NCBI RefSeq assembly: GCF_026723765.1
Contig: NZ_CP113524.1
Coordinates: forward strand, 2,341,001 to 2,405,000
Direction: 5' to 3'
Source of the DNA: Lacrimispora xylanolytica
GTDB lineage: Bacteria; Bacillota; Clostridia; Lachnospirales; Lachnospiraceae
DNA length: 64,000 nt
The notes beneath the pieces are model-generated. The model searched no databases. It was not told the origin of the DNA and saw only the letters and a list, made by a program, of their open reading frames with translations. This document shows, one piece after another, positions 1-55,516 of the stretch. Numbering within the stretch: position 1 is the first letter of the stretch; each line of letters opens with the position of its first letter. The translations under genes and the position numbers were made by a program.

Positions 1-1425
1 ATAACCAGTTAAGGAATAAGTCTTCCACAGCTTTGCGACCAAGGCTGTAATAATATAGTTTGCAACGCTGGAACCAAGAGAAACATTTCCTATCAACCTG
101 TCAGAATCATCATCATAATCAATCCATTCTGGAGTTGCCTTTACTATATTAAAAGTTCTGTCCAATAATATCATATTATAAATAGAAGTAATTCCGATAC
201 CTAAAACATTAGAAAAAGAAAATGGATAGCATTCCTTTGTCGTTTCAATATCCCGGGGAGCTATGATAATACAACCTTTTGATACCGCATAGTCACACGC
301 ATTCTGCAAATCATCTTTAAAATCCTGTGATAAGGTTGCACCGCCAATGGAAATAACATTTGCACCAGAATCAGCTGCTAAATATATGCCTTTAATCATA
401 TTTTCACATCTGCAGTCTCTGCCTGAGAGAGCTCTTACAATAAAAAATTCCGCATCAGGATATATGCTTTCTATGATTCTTACTGCCAGGTTTCCATGTT
501 CTTCATTGGAATAAAAATCATTATCTGTTTTTACACTCCCATTTTCATAAAAAACATGAACTCCACCTATAAGATTTACTTTTCTATTCTGACTTATTCC
601 AGTATCTATAATAGCCACTTTCGTTTGTTTATTTCTTCCCGGGCCATCCTTATTGACCTGATTCAGAAGAAGACAATTTTTTAAGAGTTCTGCTTTACTG
701 CAAACTTCTACTTCATGAAACCTTTTGATTTTATTGATCTGTTCCTTGGTAATTCGGCAGAATATTACACTGTATTCATCTAATGTAATATTTAATTTAC
801 CAAGACAGTCAAACTCGGAATAGATATCTGTATCCGCTGGTTCTACTCCTTTCAGACGAATGGTATGGGTATCCCCATTGTAATACATTCCCTGCAAATA
901 ATGTTCGACAAAGTCCTGATAAAATAAATGAATTAACTTATCACGATCTGTCTGGGAATCCCTATTAGATCCAGGCGCAGGCAATATAGTGAAAAATTTA
1001 TCAATATACTTATAAACAGAATTGTATCTAGTCTCCGCTATAAGTAAAATTTCTTGGTCTGGAGATTCAAAGCAGGAATTTAAATATAAAAAAGCCTGTT
1101 CAATAAAGAAAAACATCCTTTTGCTTCCCCGAAATTCATCTGAAATAATCAGAATATCAATATGTACCAGCCAGTCACCAGCCCGTTTCACTCTCTTCCA
1201 TGTAATCAGTCCTTCTATTTTGTCATCTATAAGCAATACTGCAAGTAAAGAGTTTTTACGAAATAATCTGCTGAATAAATTAAATGTCTGGTTATGATTG
1301 TCAAGATGCCGGCGCATGAAATAATAAATAGATTTGGTTTGCTCATTCCATAAGATAAATTCATCCCGATCAAACTCCATAATCTCCACACGCATATTTT
1401 CAGATTGCTTCGATATGGTTATCAT
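1..1425 (-). CDS. GNAT-like / subtilisin-like (S8) fusion, peptide maturation protease candidate (3' truncated by window)
   Basis: The frame is open from an ATG at 1425 to the window edge (475 residues, no stop). The ATG overlaps the stop of the radical SAM gene (ATGA), so the two are translationally coupled. Seen: residues about 55-135 look like a GNAT acetyltransferase fold, with a FRGSKRMFFFIEQAF stretch resembling acetyl-CoA motif A. From about 270 a subtilase pattern appears: catalytic Asp in AIIDTGIS (D274), His in NEEHGN (H310), and Ser in SLGSSVANY (S453). The usual AAGN stretch carrying the oxyanion Asn is replaced by IIIAPRD. Known: S8 proteases process several RiPP leader peptides. 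Inferred: it trims or modifies the two 52-residue peptides upstream. The GNAT assignment is by eye, and an inactive protease fold cannot be excluded because the oxyanion Asn is missing. Confidence 0.72.
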   Translation of the reverse strand, partial: MITISKQSENMRVEIMEFDRDEFILWNEQTKSIYYFMRRHLDNHNQTFNLFSRLFRKNSLLAVLLIDDKIEGLITWKRVKRAGDWLVHIDILIISDEFRGSKRMFFFIEQAFLYLNSCFESPDQEILLIAETRYNSVYKYIDKFFTILPAPGSNRDSQTDRDKLIHLFYQDFVEHYLQGMYYNGDTHTIRLKGVEPADTDIYSEFDCLGKLNITLDEYSVIFCRITKEQINKIKRFHEVEVCSKAELLKNCLLLNQVNKDGPGRNKQTKVAIIDTGISQNRKVNLIGGVHVFYENGSVKTDNDFYSNEEHGNLAVRIIESIYPDAEFFIVRALSGRDCRCENMIKGIYLAADSGANVISIGGATLSQDFKDDLQNACDYAVSKGCIIIAPRDIETTKECYPFSFSNVLGIGITSIYNMILLDRTFNIVKATPEWIDYDDDSDRLIGNVSLGSSVANYIITALVAKLWKTYSLTGY

Positions 1426-2759
1426 ATATTGACCATGCCTATTTCGTATTCTCTTATTAGCATCCGATATATGGATTCCTTATAATCATCGTTACAGGCA
1501 GGAGCACAATAATCCCCTTTTAATGTTTTGTTATAAACACGGCACCCTCCCATACATAGACCACTGACATCGCAGCCCTTACAGAATTCAAACTTGTCCA
1601 GGTGGTAGAGATTTCTGGTATTTAATGTCCGCTTTTTGATTACCTCATGCCCGTCTGTGAGAACATTTCCAAGAATTTCTGAGGTAGGTATTCCGCACAA
1701 ATAGCAGCTGCCATCAGGTGATACGGTTATCTGCTTTCCGATTCCGCATATTTCCCGGAAGGTAATAGGCATAGGCGCAGAATCACAGAGATGATTTTTA
1801 ATAAGCTGGGTATGTACGTCAAATAATAGTTTTTCAAAATCCGTGTAACTACAGATAAGGCCCTGTTCAGCCAGATCCTTTCCTCTGCCAACAGCTCTGG
1901 CGATGGAAAAAGAAAAATGATTTCTATTATTTATTAAGGAGCGGTTTTCGATTAAAAAGGGAATGAAGTTCTCCCTTATGTCTTTTTCATTAATCCTTGT
2001 AACTGTGGTATGCATATTAAGGCTGATTCCCTTTTTATTGAGATAATACAAAGTGTTCATAACCTTTTTAAAATTGCCCTTACCTCGAACTTTATCAAAA
2101 ATTTCTTCTGTAAAGCCATCAAGACTAATCTGAAAATCATTTACATTTTCCAATAAAAAGTTGATTTTAGCCTCATCTTTATCAATCCAGTCACTGAATA
2201 AAAATCCATTTGTTAAAAGAGTTATTCCTGCTGTATTAGGCTTAATATAACGGACAAAATCCGTTAATAATTCTGCATTTAACAGCGGTTCGCCACCGGA
2301 TATTGCCACCTTAGGCTTATGCGGGAAAATATTGAGAAGCTCATCAAAAACCCTGCAGAATGTATTGGTATCTGCGCTCGTCATATCAGGGAAATCAGTA
2401 GCAAAACAATGAACGCACTCTGCGTTGCATTTATATGTCATATCAAATTTAATATCAAGGATTTCATCAGCAGTGTCAAAGGGCTCAGTATGTTTATTAG
2501 CATGTACAATATCACCAAGAAGTTTTTGATATTTCTGACGAATTTCTTCTTCCGTACAATCAATGAATTGGCTGCTGTAATGTTCAAAGGCTTCACCAAT
2601 ACTCATACCGTCATATAGCTTTTGAAAGCAATCCATTCCTTCATCATCCGTAACAAAATAATTCTTGAATTCAGGAAAAAGAACCAAATTAAAATGATCA
2701 ATTTTTATAGAACTGTATCTACTGGTAAAATGAATTTGATTATTATATTCTAATAACAT
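1422..2759 (-). CDS. Radical SAM / SPASM peptide-modifying enzyme
   Basis: 445 residues. The ATG at 2759 is preferred over an upstream in-frame ATG at 2798 because AAGGAAA precedes it at good spacing. Seen: an N-terminal region of about 90 residues that could be a PqqD-like RiPP recognition element; a radical SAM CX3CX2C cluster in CNAECVHCFA; SISGGEP-type glycine motif (AISGGEPLLN); a C-terminal SPASM region with FCKGC, GLCMGGCR and a final CAPAC for auxiliary Fe-S clusters. Known: SPASM radical SAM proteins install thioether, C-C or related bonds in ribosomal peptides (ranthipeptides, cyclophanes, sactipeptides). Inferred: its substrates are the two 52-residue peptides encoded immediately upstream. 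The exact bond type cannot be read from the sequence. Confidence 0.88.
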   Translation of the reverse strand: MLLEYNNQIHFTSRYSSIKIDHFNLVLFPEFKNYFVTDDEGMDCFQKLYDGMSIGEAFEHYSSQFIDCTEEEIRQKYQKLLGDIVHANKHTEPFDTADEILDIKFDMTYKCNAECVHCFATDFPDMTSADTNTFCRVFDELLNIFPHKPKVAISGGEPLLNAELLTDFVRYIKPNTAGITLLTNGFLFSDWIDKDEAKINFLLENVNDFQISLDGFTEEIFDKVRGKGNFKKVMNTLYYLNKKGISLNMHTTVTRINEKDIRENFIPFLIENRSLINNRNHFSFSIARAVGRGKDLAEQGLICSYTDFEKLLFDVHTQLIKNHLCDSAPMPITFREICGIGKQITVSPDGSCYLCGIPTSEILGNVLTDGHEVIKKRTLNTRNLYHLDKFEFCKGCDVSGLCMGGCRVYNKTLKGDYCAPACNDDYKESIYRMLIREYEIGMVNI

Positions 2760-2835
2760 ATATAGTTTCCTTTCTACAGCAAGCTGCGGCCAATGCATTG
2801 AGTATCAAAACATAGCCGCAGCGATATAAGTAATC

Positions 2836-2863
2836 TAATTCCTGTTAAATGCCTCAGGAATTA
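2836..2863 (-). terminator. Stem-loop between precursor gene and maturase (leaky terminator or processing site)
   Basis: TAATTCCTG and CAGGAATTA form a perfect 9-bp stem around a 10-nt loop. It lies directly after the stop codon of the distal peptide gene and before the radical SAM gene. There is no long U tract on the minus strand, so it is more likely a 3'-end stabiliser or partial terminator that keeps peptide mRNA in excess over enzyme mRNA. Confidence 0.45.
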
Positions 2864-3022
2864 TTAACAGGTACAATTGCTTTTACCATTGGACCCCCAC
2901 AAGAAGCCGCCGGGACGGTTGCAATTGGTGCTGCTTTTACTGTTGACCTGAAGCTTAACACGGTTGTCCTCAGGAATGGTAAAACCTTGTTTTACATTAG
3001 ATTGCTCATGGTTTTTGTTCAT
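2864..3022 (-). CDS. 52-residue Cys-containing RiPP precursor candidate 1
   Basis: Read directly from the minus strand: ATG at 3022, TAA at 2864, 52 residues. An AAAGGGTGGTGTG ribosome binding site precedes it. The peptide starts MNKNHEQSNVKQGF, continues with IPEDNRVKLQVNSKSSTNC and NRPGGFLWG, and ends SNCTC. Cys are at 34, 50 and 52. It is about 80% identical to the peptide just upstream, and both end in CTC-stop. Known: duplicated short peptides next to a SPASM radical SAM protein are typical of RiPP loci. Inferred: a charged, polar N-terminal leader and a core from about residue 28 holding the Cys residues and the invariant PGGFLWG. I do not recognise a named family. Confidence 0.85.
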   Translation of the reverse strand: MNKNHEQSNVKQGFTIPEDNRVKLQVNSKSSTNCNRPGGFLWGSNGKSNCTC

Positions 3023-3210
3023 ATTCACACCACCCTTTCAAAGTTAAATAGTATGTATATATGTTCTCATTCAATCAGATTCACAGTTTTCTATATTCTG
3101 ATAACACATGTATCTTCCTTTGTACACAAGCTGAGATTATGCGTCAATTGCCATAGCAAAGTCACAGCTGACTTAACAATATCTTTCCTGTTGGGCCAAT
3201 CAAATAATAA

Positions 3211-3369
3211 TTAACAGGTACATTGGCTCTGACCATTACCTCCCCATAAGAATCCACCAGGACGGTTACAGTTGGTACTGCTTTTACTGTTGACCTGAAG
3301 ACGAACACGGCGATCCTCAGGAATGATAAAACCTTGCTTTACATTTGTTTGTACTTGATTTTTGTTCAT
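3211..3369 (-). CDS. 52-residue Cys-containing RiPP precursor candidate 2
   Basis: ATG at 3369, TAA at 3211, 52 residues, preceded by GAAAGGTGGTGG at good spacing. It shares NVKQGF, IPED, LQVNSKSSTNCNRPGGFLWG and the terminal CTC with the downstream copy. Substitutions are concentrated near residues 5-8, 15, 20-23 and 43-49. Cys 34, 50 and 52 and Trp 42 are invariant. It is the first peptide after the putative promoter. The mild divergence of the C-terminal third with fixed Cys and Trp suggests two related products of one maturation system. Confidence 0.85.
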   Translation of the reverse strand: MNKNQVQTNVKQGFIIPEDRRVRLQVNSKSSTNCNRPGGFLWGGNGQSQCTC

Positions 3370-3789
3370 ATTTCCACCACCTTTCAATAATAAATGTTGT
3401 TTATATTAAACATCTGAAATAAATGTTTAATATCAATATTTTGCAATCTAAATGGATAATAAGCTGAGTTTTGATTATGCTCTATCATATACTGTCGCGA
3501 AGCATTGACGAATTATTATCATTATATAATATAAAAGATATTTGAAATGCAATCAATATTTTGGGATATTTGATATATTTCCGGGATATTATGTAATGAC
3601 TACTTTAAATTAAAGTTAAAAAATAATGACATTAGAAATAAGCCCTTTATTTTAAAAGGCTTATTCCTATCATTTCTCATTTTTGTTTGTATACTAAGCA
3701 CAAAATGAATCTAATAAGAAAAATTCATAAAAGATACGTTAAATGAACTATAGAAATGTGATAGACGGGTAATAATTTAATTTCACTTT
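3370..3789. other. 420-bp AT-rich intergenic region
   Basis: There is no supportable gene. It holds the direct repeats and -10 described separately. A weak AGCCCTTTATTTTAAAAGGCTT hairpin near 3640-3662 could terminate the two-component operon on the minus strand, although no strong U tract follows it. Confidence 0.5.
3521..3591 (-). promoter_or_regulatory. Candidate activated promoter of the peptide operon with two 20-bp-phased direct repeats
   Basis: The octamer GGGATATT occurs at 3563-3570 and again at 3583-3590 (AATATCCC on the minus strand), exactly 20 bp apart. A minus-strand -10 (TATAAT) lies at 3526-3521 with no good -35 before it. Known: LytTR regulators of the AgrA type bind tandem 9-mers about one to two helical turns apart and activate promoters with poor -35 elements. 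The octamer does not match the usual LytTR half-site, so assignment to the adjacent regulator is inference. Confidence 0.5.
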
Positions 3790-5067
3790 TTATGAGGTAG
3801 GAATTAATATTTTAATGCAGAAGAAGCTTTCTAGTTCGTAGATATCAATATGTCCATGGTATTTATTGATAATATCATTTATCTGTTGATATCCATATCC
3901 ATGATCTTTCTTTTGATATTTAGTGGTAATGAGATCAGAATTCACTTCTAATATAGAGGTTTCAATTGTGTTTTTTATAAAATAGGTCTGATAGCCAGCA
4001 TGATTAAATATCTCAATATGAATCTGTTTTTTTTCTTGCCCTTCTACTGCTTCTATTGCGTTATCAAGAACATTACATAGTAATATACATAAATCAAATT
4101 CTTCTAAGCAAGGTTTCTTTAAATCTTCTATCTGAGCAAAAATCTTTATATTTTTTTTATACGCCTGATTGAGTTTATGATTAATGATAAAATTGAGAGA
4201 GTTATCGGTAAGCTTTATAAAATTAAAATTTAAACCCGCATTGTTTATTAATTCTACAATATACTCTTTTGCCTTATCATAATTTTTATTATCTAAATTA
4301 TAAGCAATATAAGTTAAATGGTTTTTAATATCATGATTAATTCGGGCCATTCTGTCAACTTGTTGATTATTTCCTATTAAGTACCGCTCATCTTCATATA
4401 TCTGCATAAGGAGATTTTTTACATGAGAGAGTCTGCTTTTACTGTTCATTTTAGCATACATATAAAAGAATATAACCTGACTGACCACAATTCCAATAAT
4501 AAGGAGTAAGAAACCATATGGTTCCTCTAAAATATTATTATTGATTGCATATAAGATAACAACTATAAAAGCAATATTATAAATCGAGTTACTTATCATT
4601 GGCTGAATGTTATCATTTTCAGACGTAATATTTCTCTCTTCTAAAAAAATATAAAATCTAATAATTCCCCATTGATAGCTTTTTAAGATCAGACATAGTA
4701 AAACAGCAAATACATGAGGAATCTTGAAAAAACCAAGACTTTTATTCATAAGTAACAGAAACAAAACGGAGACCATGGAGTTTGATAGCATTAATGTTCC
4801 ATAATAAAGAATGCAGGACCAAAGAAGACCAAATTTTGTTCTACCTTCAAATTTCAATATAATCATTAAAAGATAAGAAACAAAAATATTTCCTATGACA
4901 GCCAGAACATGAACATTTCTGTCAGAATACCAAATGTTCATGTTCAATATTGGAAACAACATTAAAAATTGAGGCTTGTCATTCCATTTATATCCATTAT
5001 ATCGCAGTAAAAAGAAAACCGCGAGTAAAGAATCAAATATAATAAGGCTGAATTGAAATATACTCAT
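3790..5067 (-). CDS. AgrC-like sensor histidine kinase (HPK10 / GHKL type)
   Basis: 425 residues. Seen: a hydrophobic N-terminal half with about six membrane segments (residues 1-205), then a dimerisation/phosphoacceptor region with the motif RINHDIKNHL near residue 245, then a GHKL ATPase with the N box LLCNVLDNAIEA and the G box KKDHGYGYQQIND. Known: this arrangement is that of AgrC, PlnB and similar peptide-pheromone receptors, which phosphorylate LytTR regulators. It follows the regulator by 8 nt, and the SD-like sequence lies within the regulator's 3' end, so translation is probably coupled. No agrB/agrD pair is next to it, so its ligand may be the modified peptide downstream or the signal made at the other end of the window. 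Confidence 0.9.
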   Translation of the reverse strand: MSIFQFSLIIFDSLLAVFFLLRYNGYKWNDKPQFLMLFPILNMNIWYSDRNVHVLAVIGNIFVSYLLMIILKFEGRTKFGLLWSCILYYGTLMLSNSMVSVLFLLLMNKSLGFFKIPHVFAVLLCLILKSYQWGIIRFYIFLEERNITSENDNIQPMISNSIYNIAFIVVILYAINNNILEEPYGFLLLIIGIVVSQVIFFYMYAKMNSKSRLSHVKNLLMQIYEDERYLIGNNQQVDRMARINHDIKNHLTYIAYNLDNKNYDKAKEYIVELINNAGLNFNFIKLTDNSLNFIINHKLNQAYKKNIKIFAQIEDLKKPCLEEFDLCILLCNVLDNAIEAVEGQEKKQIHIEIFNHAGYQTYFIKNTIETSILEVNSDLITTKYQKKDHGYGYQQINDIINKYHGHIDIYELESFFCIKILIPTS

Positions 5068-5075
5068 GATTGATT

Positions 5076-5786
5076 TTATCGTAAACTCCTTTTATATTCA
5101 GAAATTAAATTGTTTCTACGATTTCTGCTAAGCGGAAGAGAAATTATATTATCATTAAAACTAATTTCTACGGCAGACCCCCTGATAAGATAGATATATT
5201 TCAAATTAACCAAAAATCCGCTATGTATTCGAACGAATGTTTTGCCTTCCAATTGTTTTTCAATGAGTTTTAAAGTAGATCTAAATACAAATGAATCTCC
5301 ATTTAAGACTATTTTTACATTATTATGCAATGATTCGAAATAGATAATATCATGAATCTTCACTTCCTTGTGCGTAACCAGATTAATTGGCACGTTAAAA
5401 ATATCCAAATTATTCTTTATTATAGATACAGCGCTGCTCAATGCTTCATTTAATTCATTCATATGAGATTTTCTGATAAATCTGAATGGCTGGAGTTTAA
5501 ATGATTCATATACATACATGTCCATGTTTGTAATGAATAAGACCAGCAACTGATGATTATATATTCTTACTTCCTTAACTACATCTAACCCTTTTATATC
5601 AGGCATCTCAATGTCTATCAAAAGCAAATCAATAGGAGTATCCTTTGCCATACTAATAACATGTCTTGGGTCGGTAAATTCATAGCAAGTATATTGAATC
5701 AGTGGATCAAGAATGGTACATAACCTTTCTTTAATTAATTTAACAGCGCTTGCCTCATCATCACAAACAACGATATGTATTTTCAT
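5076..5786 (-). CDS. LytTR-family response regulator (AgrA-like)
   Basis: 236 residues from the ATG at 5786. An ATG 6 nt upstream sits directly against the AAAGGGG ribosome binding site, so the second ATG is better spaced. Seen: a CheY-like receiver with acidic pocket VCDDE, phosphoacceptor Asp in LLIDIEMPD, and a conserved Lys in FIRKSH. A C-terminal LytTR DNA-binding domain starts around residue 135, with FVRIHSGFLVNL typical of that fold. Known: LytTR regulators bind direct repeats and usually control bacteriocin, virulence or quorum genes. First gene of a two-gene operon with the sensor. Likely targets are the peptide genes downstream and its own promoter. Confidence 0.92.
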   Translation of the reverse strand: MKIHIVVCDDEASAVKLIKERLCTILDPLIQYTCYEFTDPRHVISMAKDTPIDLLLIDIEMPDIKGLDVVKEVRIYNHQLLVLFITNMDMYVYESFKLQPFRFIRKSHMNELNEALSSAVSIIKNNLDIFNVPINLVTHKEVKIHDIIYFESLHNNVKIVLNGDSFVFRSTLKLIEKQLEGKTFVRIHSGFLVNLKYIYLIRGSAVEISFNDNIISLPLSRNRRNNLISEYKRSLR

Positions 5787-5864
5787 ATTCATTCCCCTTT
5801 ATTATAATGAGTGTATATTATGATAATGCAATATTACTTTCATTTTGTATTTAACATTAAATAT

Positions 5865-5893
5865 ATTATAATACTATTTTTAATCAAAATAAA
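5865..5893 (-). promoter_or_regulatory. Putative promoter of the two-component operon
   Basis: On the minus strand, TTTATT (5893-5888), a 17-nt spacer and TATAAT (5870-5865) precede the regulator start by about 80 nt. The surroundings are extremely AT-rich, so chance matches are likely. The rest of 5800-6040 shows no gene. Confidence 0.35.
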
Positions 5894-6040
5894 GTTTTAT
5901 TGAGCTAATGACAGTTATATGCAAAATAATATTATTTTCAACATTCAATTCGATATATTCCAACATATTTCGCAATATTAACATAAAATCACTCCCTTGC
6001 TAACTTATAAGATTGATTCCACAAATAAATTCTATTTCTG

Positions 6041-6074
6041 AAAAAACAAAAAACCGTCAAGATAATCTTGACGG
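6041..6074 (-). terminator. Rho-independent terminator of the cobalamin ABC operon
   Basis: CCGTCAAG and CTTGACGG pair around ATAAT (6054-6074). On the minus strand they are followed by TTTTTTGTTTTTT. It lies about 70 nt past the stop of the ATPase gene. Confidence 0.85.
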
Positions 6075-6144
6075 CGATTTATATATTTCATATGCAAATA
6101 ATAGATTTATTAAAGCTTTATTTAATAAAATACTTGTAAAAGAG

Positions 6145-6897
6145 CTAATTCATCTTAAGGTGAAAGTCAAGAGCCCCATCCTCTAATTCTAATGCAAAGC
6201 CTTCTACTCCAAACACCTGGTGTACCCTTTTCTTTTGAAGGACCTCTGACGGCCTGCCTCCGCAAACAACGTTTCCCTGCTTCATTAAATACAGTGTATC
6301 GCAATAATGCGCAGCCAGCCTTAAATCGTGTAAGACAATAAGAATGGTCTTTTTACTCTGCTTTAAGATATCTAAAATATAAAGCTGATGTTTGATATCC
6401 AGGTGATTTGTTGGTTCATCAAGAATAATCGTATCCACACCCTGAGCAAATGCCCTTGCAATGAAGACCAATTTCCGCTCTCCACCAGATAAATTCTGAA
6501 TATTCCGGTCCCTTAGGTGTACAATGCCTAACTGCTCCAGTGCATTCATAACGAGAGCTCTTTCCGCCCGTTTATTCAATCTCCCACGGATAGGAACGGC
6601 CATGGATACGATTTCATATGCGGTAAAATCAAACATACAGCTGTTTTCCTGACCCACGTAAGCGAAACGCTGGGCCAGCTGCTTGTTGTTTAATCCTGTC
6701 AGGGAAGAACCCTCTAATAAAATATCTCCAGCTTTCATGGAATGAAGACCCAGAGTTGTTTTTATGAGAGTTGACTTCCCACAGCCATTTGGGCCTACAA
6801 TTCCCGTTATATTACCGCTTTCAGCAGTCAGATTTACTCCATATAATATCCTGGTCCTCCCTATAGACACATAAACATCTTGATATTCTATCTTCAT
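6145..6897 (-). CDS. btuD: Cobalamin-type ABC importer, ATP-binding subunit
   Basis: 250 residues, FepC/BtuD family. Seen: Walker A GPNGCGKST, Q-loop in AYVGQENS, signature NLSGGERKL, Walker B TIILDEPTNHLD, and the switch His in VLHDLRLA. It powers uptake by the adjacent permease at the cytoplasmic face. Family members import cobalamin, haem or ferric siderophores. The cobalamin riboswitch controlling the operon points to a corrinoid. Last gene of the operon, 18 nt after the permease. Confidence 0.85.
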   Translation of the reverse strand: MKIEYQDVYVSIGRTRILYGVNLTAESGNITGIVGPNGCGKSTLIKTTLGLHSMKAGDILLEGSSLTGLNNKQLAQRFAYVGQENSCMFDFTAYEIVSMAVPIRGRLNKRAERALVMNALEQLGIVHLRDRNIQNLSGGERKLVFIARAFAQGVDTIILDEPTNHLDIKHQLYILDILKQSKKTILIVLHDLRLAAHYCDTLYLMKQGNVVCGGRPSEVLQKKRVHQVFGVEGFALELEDGALDFHLKMN

Positions 6898-32432: not shown

Positions 32433-34370
32433 TTATTTGACAGCTTTTTTATGAACGTTACGTATGGTCTTTTTCTTGCGGTTCTTTTGTCCTTCCTGGG
32501 ACGAAGCTTCCGCTTTTCTCATATTACCATTATATTTCCCGTTTTTCCCATCCATATTACTTTTAGGACCACCTGTTTTAGGGCGAATGAGGCATTTTTT
32601 ATCAAAACCGATGAGATCGGTTCTTCCTGCCTGCTTTAACGCTTCTACCACCAGGTCGTAGTTCTTAGGGTTGCGGTACTGTATGAGAGCTCTCTGCATG
32701 GCTTTTTCGTGAGGATTGGTCGGCACGTAGACCTTTTCCATGGTACGGGGATCATGCCCGGTATAATACATACACGTAGAAATGGTGGAAGGAGTTGGAT
32801 AAAAGTCCTGCACCTGCTCCGGCATATATCCCAGATCTCTTAAATATTCTGCCAGCTCTATGGCCTCATGAAGACCAGAGCCTGGATGAGAAGACATGAG
32901 ATAGGGAACCAGAAACTGTTTCTTGCCTATTCTCACATTCATCTCGTTATACTCTTTTACGAACTGACGGTATACCTGATTTTGGGGCTTGCCCATCTTG
33001 GAAAGCACTTTATCTGCTACGTGCTCCGGTGCGACCTTTAACTGACCGCTGACATGGTGCTCACAAAGCTCCTTTAAGAACTTTTTGCCCGGATCTGCCA
33101 GAACATAATCAAATCGGATCCCTGAACGGATAAATACCTTTTTCACCTTAGGCAGATTCCTTAGTTTCCTTAAAAGCTCGATATAATCTGAGTGGTCTGC
33201 TCTTAAATTCTTACAAGGTTCCGGAAACAGGCACTGACGGTTGGAACAGGCTCCCTTTGTGGTCTGCTTTTCGCAGGCTGGATACCTGAAATCTGCGGTA
33301 GGGCCGCCAACATCGTGAATATAACCTTTAAAATCCGGTTCCTCTGTCAGTTTTTTTGCCTCATCAATGAGGGAATTATGGCTTCTTGCCTGAATGATCC
33401 TTCCCTGATGAAAGGTAAGAGCACAGAAACTGCAGGCTCCAAAGCAGCCCCTATTATTAATAAGGCTGAATTTTACCTCCCTGACTGCCGGAATTCCTCC
33501 CTGTTCCTCGTAGGAGGGATGGTAGTTGCGCATATAGGGAAGGTCATACGTGAAATCCATCTCTTCCTCAGACAATGGCTTTGACGGAGGATTCTGAACC
33601 ACAAATAAATTATCCTTATACGGCTCTACCAGGCGTTTTCCGAGAAATGGATCGGTATTGGAATACTGAACATAATAGCTTTTTGCATATTCCAGCTTAT
33701 CAGCCTTCATGCTGTCATAGGATGGGAGTAATTTATAATCATAAACGGATTCCAGGCTGCTTGCCTTATAAACCGTTCCTTCAATAAATGTAATATCTTT
33801 AATATCAATTCCGCTGTTTAAGGCATCTGCAATCTCTACAATTGATTTTTCGCCCATTCCATAGGAAATCAAATCTGCCTGGGAATCAATTAAAATGGAG
33901 TGTTTTAACCGGTCAGACCAGTAATCATAATGAGCAAACCGACGCAAGCTGGCTTCAATGCCTCCGATGATAACAGGAGTATTCTTATAGACGGAACGGA
34001 TTAAATTGCAGTAAACTGTGGTTGCATAATCCGGCCGCTTCCCCATGACTCCGCCAGGGGTATAGGCATCCTGCTGTCTCCGTTTCTTTGAAACAGAGTA
34101 ATGATTTACCATAGAGTCCATATTTCCGCCGGAAACTAAAAATCCAAGTCTTGGCTCCCCGAGGACCTGAATGCTCTTTTTATCCTTCCAGTCTGGCTGT
34201 GCGATAATTCCAACTTTATATCCATGGGCCTCCAAAAGACGGCTGATAATGGCATGTCCAAAAGAAGGGTGGTCTACATAGGCATCTCCGACGACGTAAA
34301 CAAAATCGCATTGTTTCCAGCCTCTGATATTCATATCAGTCCTGCTGATAGGAAGATAATCGTGTATCAT
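32433..34370 (-). CDS. YgiQ-family radical SAM protein
   Basis: 645 residues. Seen: an N-terminal domain with FVYVGDAYVDHPSFG-like motif (VVGDAYVDHPSFGHA), a radical SAM cluster in NRGCFGACSFCAL, and a second Cys cluster in CEKQTTKGACSNRQCLFPEPC. The tail is strongly basic (KNRKKKTIRN). Known: the YgiQ/UPF0313 family is widespread and its reaction is still not settled. The start overlaps the HAD gene stop by 4 nt, so the two are coupled. Confidence 0.92.
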   Translation of the reverse strand: MIHDYLPISRTDMNIRGWKQCDFVYVVGDAYVDHPSFGHAIISRLLEAHGYKVGIIAQPDWKDKKSIQVLGEPRLGFLVSGGNMDSMVNHYSVSKKRRQQDAYTPGGVMGKRPDYATTVYCNLIRSVYKNTPVIIGGIEASLRRFAHYDYWSDRLKHSILIDSQADLISYGMGEKSIVEIADALNSGIDIKDITFIEGTVYKASSLESVYDYKLLPSYDSMKADKLEYAKSYYVQYSNTDPFLGKRLVEPYKDNLFVVQNPPSKPLSEEEMDFTYDLPYMRNYHPSYEEQGGIPAVREVKFSLINNRGCFGACSFCALTFHQGRIIQARSHNSLIDEAKKLTEEPDFKGYIHDVGGPTADFRYPACEKQTTKGACSNRQCLFPEPCKNLRADHSDYIELLRKLRNLPKVKKVFIRSGIRFDYVLADPGKKFLKELCEHHVSGQLKVAPEHVADKVLSKMGKPQNQVYRQFVKEYNEMNVRIGKKQFLVPYLMSSHPGSGLHEAIELAEYLRDLGYMPEQVQDFYPTPSTISTCMYYTGHDPRTMEKVYVPTNPHEKAMQRALIQYRNPKNYDLVVEALKQAGRTDLIGFDKKCLIRPKTGGPKSNMDGKNGKYNGNMRKAEASSQEGQKNRKKKTIRNVHKKAVK

Positions 34371-54192: not shown

Positions 54193-55516
54193 CTTCCAAC
54201 TCTCCCATCAAATCATATTCCATAGCTCCGGTAACCCGAACCCTGGCAAAATCACCTGACATCAGTTCTACACCGGTCTGGACAAATATCATACCATCCA
54301 CACCAGGTCCATCCATATAAGTACGTCCCACATAAGCATTTTCATCTGCCACTTTACCCTCGATCATAACTTCAACGGTCTTTCCAATCATAGACTCTGA
54401 ATGCTCTAATGAAATTTCCTGCTGAAGCTCCATAATTTCATCACGGCGGTCTTCTTTCACTTCCTGATCTACGTGATCCGGGAAACCAGCCGCTGGTGTA
54501 TCTTCTTCTGCAGAATATGCAAATACTCCAAGACGTTCAAACTCCATCTCATCTACAAATCCCATGAGTTCTTCATGGTCTTCTTCTGTTTCACCAGGGA
54601 AACCAGAAATAAGTGTGGTTCGAAGGGCAATGTCCGGGATTTCTTTTCTAAGCTTTTCCACAATTCCACGAAGCTGATCCTGAGTCGTTCTTCGTCCCAT
54701 GCGCTTTAAAATACGATCACTGGCATGCTGAATCGGCAGGTCAAGATAATGGCAGATCTTCGCTTCTTCCTTCATGGTCTGAATCAGCTCATCTGTAATT
54801 TCCTCTGGATAGCAATACTGAATTCTGATCCACTGAATGCCTGAGATACGGCAAAGTTTCTTCAGCAGTTCAGGAAGAGACTTTTTGCCATAGAGGTCCA
54901 CGCCGTAAAGTGTGGTTTCCTGTGCAACTAAAATAAGCTCTTTTACTCCTTTTTCAGCCAGTTCTTGAGCTTCCTTTAAAAGTCTCTCCATAGGAACGCT
55001 GCGGTAGTTTCCACGAAGGGTAGGGATAATACAGTAAGTACAGTGCTTATCACAGCCTTCCGCAATTTTAAGGAATGCATAATGACCTCCGGTGGTAAGA
55101 ACTCGTCCAGTCTCCACCTCTGGAATTCCGTCTAAATCGTGGAAACGCTGCACGTGTTCTACGCCGCTTAAAGCTTCCCTTAACACATTGGAAATTTCGT
55201 CATAGGTGGAGGTTCCAAGAATTCCATCTACTTCCGGAATCTCATCAATGATCTCCTGCTTATATCGCTGAGCAAGACAACCTGTTACAATAAGTGCCTT
55301 GCATTTTGCGTCTACCTTTCTTTGAGCCATCTCCAGTATGGTATTGATGCTTTCCTCCTTTGCATCTCCGATAAAACAGCAGGTGTTAACTACAATAACA
55401 TCTGCCTCATATTCATCATCCGTAAAGGTATATCCGTCTTTATTTAAAAGGCCCAGCATCATCTCCGTATCAACCAGATTCTTGTCACAGCCCAGTGAAA
55501 CACATAATAATTTCAT
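54176..55516 (-). CDS. rimO: Ribosomal protein S12 methylthiotransferase RimO
   Basis: 446 residues. Seen: N-terminal MTTase Fe-S ligands in VSLGCDKNLVDTE, VNTCCFIG and VTGCLAQRY, a radical SAM cluster EGCDKHCTYCIIP, and a C-terminal TRAM domain (VMIEGKVADENAYVGRTY). It adds a methylthio group to Asp89 of S12. The opening KLLCVSLGCDKN favours RimO over MiaB. Confidence 0.96.
   Translation of the reverse strand: MKLLCVSLGCDKNLVDTEMMLGLLNKDGYTFTDDEYEADVIVVNTCCFIGDAKEESINTILEMAQRKVDAKCKALIVTGCLAQRYKQEIIDEIPEVDGILGTSTYDEISNVLREALSGVEHVQRFHDLDGIPEVETGRVLTTGGHYAFLKIAEGCDKHCTYCIIPTLRGNYRSVPMERLLKEAQELAEKGVKELILVAQETTLYGVDLYGKKSLPELLKKLCRISGIQWIRIQYCYPEEITDELIQTMKEEAKICHYLDLPIQHASDRILKRMGRRTTQDQLRGIVEKLRKEIPDIALRTTLISGFPGETEEDHEELMGFVDEMEFERLGVFAYSAEEDTPAAGFPDHVDQEVKEDRRDEIMELQQEISLEHSESMIGKTVEVMIEGKVADENAYVGRTYMDGPGVDGMIFVQTGVELMSGDFARVRVTGAMEYDLMGELEDEFTE

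Follow-up and report, generated by a model that had tools for sequence, protein, structure and literature searches.

In the qhp system, a radical SAM enzyme, an S8 protease and an ABC exporter act in that order: QhpD cross-links, QhpE removes a 28-residue leader in the cytosol, and QhpF exports (PMC7876137). Here we describe a seven-gene cassette of Lacrimispora xylanolytica that encodes the same three kinds of protein beside two short precursor peptides, pepA and pepB. It lies at the start of a 64,000-nucleotide stretch (bases 2341001-2405000 of the 4.5 Mb single-contig genome; hereafter the window). Its genes, all on the minus strand, encode a LytTR regulator, a GHKL kinase, pepA, pepB, a radical SAM/SPASM maturase, an S8 protease and an ABC exporter. 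With a probability of about 80%, we read it as a horizontally gained, two-component-controlled cassette for a ribosomally synthesized and post-translationally modified peptide (RiPP), with Cys-based cross-links made by the radical SAM enzyme, leader removal by the S8 protein and ABC export.

This reading is based on the gene order and open frames, the family assignments, co-occurrence in 3 of 25 genus genomes, the absence of the block from relatives and its low G+C content. It is further based on three invariant cysteines, a core that is kept while the leader varies, and the presence of SkfB among the matches of the maturase, as well as on two named loci elsewhere in this genome that likewise combine a precursor gene with radical SAM and S8 genes, and on the qhp order of action. 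The likeness to qhp lies in the three kinds of protein and in the order of action that we propose for them; the qhp substrate differs in being a dehydrogenase subunit (PMC7876137).

The two named loci were revealed by S8 and kinase searches. One (L144:3341-11604; G000:C1:1506341-1514604) is a lachnocin locus with agr-like genes. It encodes a regulator, a kinase, an AgrB-like protein (below cut-off), AgrD (31.5 bits, cut-off 19), an ABC protein, the lachnocin precursor (NF038169, 99.2; cut-off 40), and the maturase (NF038170, 838.5; cut-off 550). Its S8 protein is 560 aa long and matches TIGR04066 below cut-off in the second half, a fusion that looks worth study. The locus shares with the cassette a small Cys/Trp precursor, a radical SAM maturase, an S8 protein, an ABC gene, and a kinase and regulator that are 28% and 31% identical to those of the cassette. 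It differs in its precursor, which has no similarity to pepA or pepB, in its maturase, which is 25% identical over 129 residues only, and in its agrB-like and agrD genes, none of which was recognised among the open reading frames (ORFs) of the cassette. The S8 domain is N-terminal in the lachnocin-locus protein and C-terminal in the cassette protein.

The other (L145:8372-14499; G000:C1:4296372-4302499) is a CLI_3235/CcpM bacteriocin-type locus. Three of its proteins exceed their cut-offs: CcpM (TIGR04068, 563; cut-off 500), the CLI_3235 precursor (TIGR04065, 33; cut-off 26) and a TIGR04066 protein (201.2; cut-off 200). It also has an ABC gene, a gene for an acyl-carrier-like protein, which scores below cut-off, and one for an S8 protein of 407 aa. 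A Cys-rich precursor, a radical SAM maturase, an S8 protease and an ABC exporter are common to this locus and the cassette. The precursor of the CcpM locus differs in carrying a dense CxC run, the TIGR04066 and acyl-carrier-like genes are additional, and the two maturases are 27% identical over 192 residues. The S8 part of the cassette protein has no match at all to the S8 protein of this locus. The cassette is only distantly related to the radical SAM/S8 loci L144, L145, L047 and L057, with identities of 24-29% over parts of the maturase and 22-27% for the S8 part.

Neither pepA nor pepB was matched by an NCBIfam model at E<=1, and the lachnocin and CLI_3235/CcpM models were absent among the 25 of 71 maturase matches listed. 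The best NCBIfam neighbours of the maturase were MftC (TIGR03962; 89.2 bits, cut-off 265), ScmE (84, cut-off 400) and the StsB-type sactipeptide maturase (NF045574; 77.5 bits, cut-off 625); it is thus a member of neither the StsB nor the MftC family, and no model exceeded its cut-off among those 25. By sequence, the maturase is related to peptide maturases and lies outside any named equivalog in that set. The S8 part scored 53.5 bits with the QhpE model (NF049966), below the cut-off of 165. Below its cut-off, this model also hit 185 of 319 genomes of the family and 4 of 14 controls; for lack of specificity at that level it was rejected as a marker.

The original prediction had called the RiPP locus undescribed-looking. 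The peptides are indeed unclaimed by NCBIfam, but the kind of system is known, since the lachnocin and CLI_3235/CcpM loci of the same genome each have an S8 gene near a radical SAM gene. The arrangement is a recurrent known kind, and the cassette is a distinct, unnamed member of it with a differently built protease: the precursor family and the build of the protease are new, and the overall plan is known.

Two unnamed loci in relatives also combine these genes. In a family relative (L057:6649-12129), a RiPP-like locus encodes a 57-aa peptide with CDNDCPKGYWSG, an S8 protease, an ABC exporter and two radical SAM proteins, whose nearest models, StsB and PapB, do not reach their cut-offs. In a genus relative (L047:7864-13634), a 50-aa peptide with CDGSDCLHDCPP is accompanied by two radical SAM genes, an S8 protease, ABC genes and a protein that is thioredoxin-like by eye. 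Neither peptide has an NCBIfam match at E<=1e-5.

The cassette extends past the window edge, and at both ends past the span (1..3369) covered by the original prediction (Table 1). Succession without a break had been claimed for the precursor, radical SAM and protease genes. This is not exact for the precursors: 188 nt lie between pepA and pepB, and a 104-nt interval containing two hairpins lies between pepB and the radical SAM gene. The coupling proposed for the radical SAM and S8 genes is borne out by their 4-nt overlap. The preferred start of the maturase is the ATG at 2759, giving 445 aa, which is preceded by a ribosome site. No C39 peptidase domain was found in the ABC exporter (Pfam, E<=10), and the S8 protein is therefore the only protease candidate seen in the cassette for leader removal.

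Table 1. Features of the cassette and its putative control elements (window coordinates unless marked L009).
Feature	Position	Strand	Evidence and remarks
LytTR response regulator, 238 aa, first cassette gene	5076..5792	-	Over cut-off with PF04397 (59.2 bits) and PF00072 (48.3 bits)
GHKL sensor histidine kinase, 425 aa, AgrC-like build	3790..5067	-	PF14501 76.7 bits
Candidate promoter TTGATT-17-TATATT and, just upstream, direct repeat AATATCCC with 20-nt period	3528..3591	-	Candidate regulator site
Precursor peptide pepA, 52 aa	3211..3369	-	ORF and ribosome site; 3/25 genus genomes match strongly
Precursor peptide pepB, 52 aa	2864..3022	-	83% identical to pepA
Hairpin directly 3' of pepB stop	2836..2863	-	-9.0 kcal/mol, z -4.05; sequence kept in L012
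Strong hairpin between precursor genes and enzyme gene	2783..2822	-	-24.4 kcal/mol, z -4.63; identical in L012
Radical SAM/SPASM peptide maturase, 445 aa	1422..2759	-	PF04055 over cut-off; SPASM cysteine pattern
S8 protease with N-terminal extension, 499 aa in all	1..1425	-	Continues 75 nt beyond window start; full gene L009:15926-17425
ABC permease-ATPase exporter, outside window, after S8 gene	L009:14126-15886		ABC_membrane and ABC_tran over cut-off

Both precursor genes begin with ATG and are preceded by ribosome sites, GAAAGGTGGTGG for pepA and GAAAGGGTGGTG for pepB. As originally described, they are twins of 52 residues with invariant Cys34, Cys50, Cys52 and PGGFLWG. The three cysteines, RPGGFLWG and the C-terminal CTC are identical in 4/4 copies (two in the window and two in [Clostridium] aerotolerans), the other three copies being 81-90% identical to pepA overall. 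Most differences between the species lie in the leader, and the core is conserved. In pepA, one synonymous and six nonsynonymous changes separate the species, all in codons 1-33, and codons 34-52 are unchanged. In pepB, there are seven synonymous and two nonsynonymous changes, with synonymous (dS) and nonsynonymous (dN) divergences of 0.287 and 0.016; for pepA against pepB in the window, dS is 0.867 and dN 0.116. By these counts pepB, and pepA and pepB as a paralogue pair, look like constrained coding genes. A single Pfam match to pepA, at E 0.29, was taken as noise. We conclude that pepA and pepB represent a new precursor family, absent from the reference libraries searched.

The maturase matched PF04055 with 67.8 bits (cut-off 29.5) and carries the radical SAM motif CX3CX2C at C111, C115 and C118 (445-aa numbering). 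The original assignment as a SPASM enzyme was confirmed, though PF13186 stayed below cut-off (15.6 against 21.5), by a full cysteine set read from the sequence (C338-X11-G350-X4-C355; C393-X2-C396-X5-C402-X3-C406; C418/C422). Both marks of a radical SAM/SPASM RiPP locus were thus found, namely an enzyme with CX3CX2C and SPASM cysteines, and a short precursor beside the enzyme and kept with it (3/25 genus genomes, two species). Between species, the maturase gene has 46 synonymous and 14 nonsynonymous changes. Its PDB sequence matches, which span only the radical SAM core, were led by viperin-like proteins (E 7e-9), followed by SkfB and YydG (E 2e-6 to 4e-6); SkfB, a named RiPP maturase, also recurs among the fold matches of a low-confidence AlphaFold model. 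In that model, the N-terminus forms strands and then three helices, and residues 1-100 may be a RiPP recognition element (RRE).

The same locus occurs in Clostridium sp. 12(A), where the maturase is 100% identical, and in [Clostridium] aerotolerans DSM 5434 (97%). Co-occurrence had been named as the check on the original prediction. Close homologues of the peptides without the enzyme were not seen, nor the reverse; 3/25 genus genomes, from two species, have both. Peptide-only matches in 8 other genus genomes (E 0.03-0.92) were taken as chance. That the peptides are substrates of the enzyme, as had been proposed, gains indirect support from their place in one block absent from relatives, from this co-occurrence and from the conserved core.

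The gene adjoining the cassette, a radical SAM gene of the TIGR03960 type, is conserved in 25/25 genus genomes. Of the 22 genus genomes without the cassette, 12 were compared over the stretch that precedes this gene. Cassette genes were found in none of these 12 stretches (E<=1e-15). In three (G002, G010, G012) the site is empty, and iron-transport genes, called fhuDBC by eye, adjoin the TIGR03960-type gene with gaps of 167, 167 and 126 nt; no fhu match was found in the stretches of the other nine (E<=1e-15). On the near side of the cassette, the first 100 bases (the end of fhuC) align, and on the far side part of the region upstream of the TIGR03960-type gene can still be recognised, with 42 nt aligning to G002 at 78% identity (E 0.006). 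As both flanks align, the block spans the interval from the fhuC stop to this upstream region. It measures 7,667 bp and has 33.7% G+C (kinase 27.6%, regulator 30.1%), compared with 41.1% for the window and 44.1% for fhu. On these sequence comparisons, gain of the cassette in this lineage would be a simpler reading than loss elsewhere. A 10-pair hairpin with a T-run at window positions 6053-6075 (minus strand), just after fhuC, is likely a terminator dividing fhu from the cassette.

The enzyme was matched in 9/25 genus genomes at E<=1e-10, six of them at only 25-30% identity. Three of these six neighbourhoods were inspected (L044, L047 and L048, the last by tblastn only), and L044 has radical SAM and ABC genes with no S8 or peptide match. 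Among 397 family genomes, with at most 4 candidates scored per genome, one distant radical SAM gene was found besides those of its own species, and its neighbourhood (L043) had no S8 or peptide match. The protease was matched in 8/397 family genomes, two of them of its own species. Of three neighbourhoods looked at among the other six, L057 is the radical SAM locus described above, and L058 and L059 hold large S8 proteins with no recognised radical SAM gene adjacent.

A scan of genome contigs gave three loci. Two are those of Clostridium sp. 12(A) and [Clostridium] aerotolerans; the third is an incomplete radical SAM match on a 3-kb contig of a metagenome-assembled genome, where no peptide or S8 match was found. 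Viral contigs contained no relative of the enzyme, 11 plasmid records had distant radical SAM genes and no peptide match, and phages had no peptide match. In the class sample, the peptide profile matched 7/391 genomes at E<=0.01, two of them of its own species, where about 4 are expected by chance. Two of these matches (L062, L063) carry stops, and two others lie in L061 and L064. In L060 (1501-1569), a 23-residue core-like stretch (E 6.4e-4, 1/391 genomes) with a nearby stop, by eye in another frame of an oxidoreductase gene, is most likely a chance match. Among the open-access papers listed by our searches, no title or abstract start describes this locus.

We propose that the GHKL kinase and LytTR regulator would switch on a transcript starting upstream of pepA. 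A promoter-like match lies there; the scan gave 45 such matches in all, where 35.1 (sd 6.1) were expected. The direct repeat is at the same place in both species, but repeats of this kind are not enriched over shuffled sequence (2, shuffle mean 1.4). No Rfam family was found at gathering scores in window positions 1-6500. The two inter-gene hairpins do not differ between the species. Neither has a U-run, and they may lower enzyme expression relative to the precursors through partial termination or RNA processing. Because these hairpins lie between, the two near-identical precursors would be produced in excess of the enzyme.

The product is probably a bacteriocin or a signal peptide. Were it a signal read by the adjacent GHKL kinase and not a bacteriocin, a possibility we take seriously without favouring it, this would accord with a kinase and regulator inside the block that relatives lack, with the agr-like genes of the lachnocin locus, and with a sensor half (residues 1-200, 18.5% different between species) that has diverged more than the remainder, the kinase half (10.6%). 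However, the cores hardly change between species while the sensor does, contrary to signal-receptor co-variation.

In the proposed maturation, the radical SAM/SPASM enzyme would bind the leader, residues 1 to about 30, and oxidatively cross-link the core, about residues 31-52, for example STNCNRPGGFLWGGNGQSQCTC in pepA. At roughly even odds, one or more Cys thioethers are the most likely cross-link; such a bond goes to an alpha carbon in sactipeptides and to a beta or gamma carbon in ranthipeptides. Residues 28-52 contain no Asp or Glu; these are the usual acceptors in many ranthipeptides. The identity of PGGFLWG in all four peptides would also suit a C-C or ether cross-link at Trp42 or Phe40 of the cyclophane, streptide or darobactin-like type, with the cysteines in a disulfide or free, and WgkB (52.1 bits of 650) among the sub-cut-off NCBIfam matches listed and SuiB among the fold matches of the low-confidence model point the same way. 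Yet the two residues after Trp42, Gly-Gly in pepA but Gly-Ser in pepB, do not give a constant three-residue cyclophane motif, and the three cysteines are fully conserved; we consider such a linkage unlikely.

It is less likely still that the enzyme epimerises or otherwise modifies single residues with no cross-link, a disulfide forming after export. The epimerase YydG/EpeE was found both by PDB sequence search (E 4e-6) and among the fold matches. However, its sequence similarity is confined to the radical SAM core, its fold similarity was obtained with a low-confidence model, and the maturase has the full SPASM cysteine set. The reading with Cys-based cross-links continues with leader removal by the S8 protease, which would take place in the cytosol by analogy with QhpE acting on QhpC, and with export of the product, putatively by the ABC protein.

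The S8 domain of the protease begins at residue 266, after an extension of about 260 residues, and is C-terminal (PF00082, 23.0 bits with the 475 residues inside the window; cut-off 21.8). The Asp, His, Ser triad is present, as in the S8 proteins of the radical SAM loci L047 and L057. In the class sample, residues 1-265 matched only its own species (2/391 genomes). The original prediction had called this protein a GNAT-S8 fusion and an unusual partner. Its S8 half stands, narrowly over the cut-off and with the triad; an S8 partner as such is not unusual, given the lachnocin and CLI_3235/CcpM loci, and the long extension is. The GNAT half was not confirmed: no Pfam match was found to residues 1-172 (E<=10), the extension is not among the 54 PF00583 places of the genome (E<=10), and it has no PDB sequence match (E<=10). 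A profile-profile comparison with 17 of these 54 GNAT places (of 30 loci fetched, 20 could be read in frame, and 3 of these were excluded because of their length) gave 15.9, barely above the 10.3-15.3 of 10 shuffles.

The extension is very unlikely to work as a GNAT that adds an acetyl group to the peptide N-terminus exposed by S8 cleavage. By eye its sequence could be that of a GNAT, and the low-confidence model does resemble GNAT in its order of elements (strands, helix, three strands, helix), acetyltransferases recur among the fold matches, none reaching E 0.001, and the profile score exceeds 10/10 shuffles. Against this stand the three null searches, the closeness of 15.9 to the highest shuffle, and the CoA-binding motif, R/QxxGxG/A in GNAT proteins, which reads RGSKRM in the extension. 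The protease model was built on the Clostridium sp. 12(A) copy, and fold matches from both models are weak hints only; toxin and effector entries among them were taken as chance. Highly improbable, too, is a new RiPP class in which Cys34, Trp42 and the C-terminal CTC are joined by a linkage without precedent and one protein both cuts the leader and caps the N-terminus through its acyltransferase-like half.

Several observations weigh against a radical SAM RiPP cassette as we propose it. The best PDB matches of the maturase are viperin-like and cover the radical SAM core only, no PqqD/RRE Pfam match was found for its residues 1-100 (E<=10), and the AlphaFold models of maturase and protease are poor, with mean predicted local distance difference test (pLDDT) scores of 38.2 and 33.3. 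The S8 score is close to the Pfam cut-off, and the protein has APRDI at what we take to be the position of the subtilisin oxyanion-hole Asn motif. The cassette occurs in only two species, so that the co-occurrence is weakly independent. In pepA, the ratio of six nonsynonymous changes to one synonymous gives no sign of purifying selection, in counts too few to interpret.

Elsewhere in the window, further radical SAM matches were seen at 32853-33452 and 54557-55066 (-), with PF04055 scores of 32 and 100.8 bits.

The cassette adds a precursor family, and a maturase unclaimed by the NCBIfam models listed, in a culturable anaerobe; it is complete and compact, and has its own regulators. The extended S8 protein raises the testable question of whether leader removal is coupled to capping. 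Three separate loci of this genome pair an S8 gene with a radical SAM RiPP gene, and S8 genes are therefore a possible handle for finding further such peptides.

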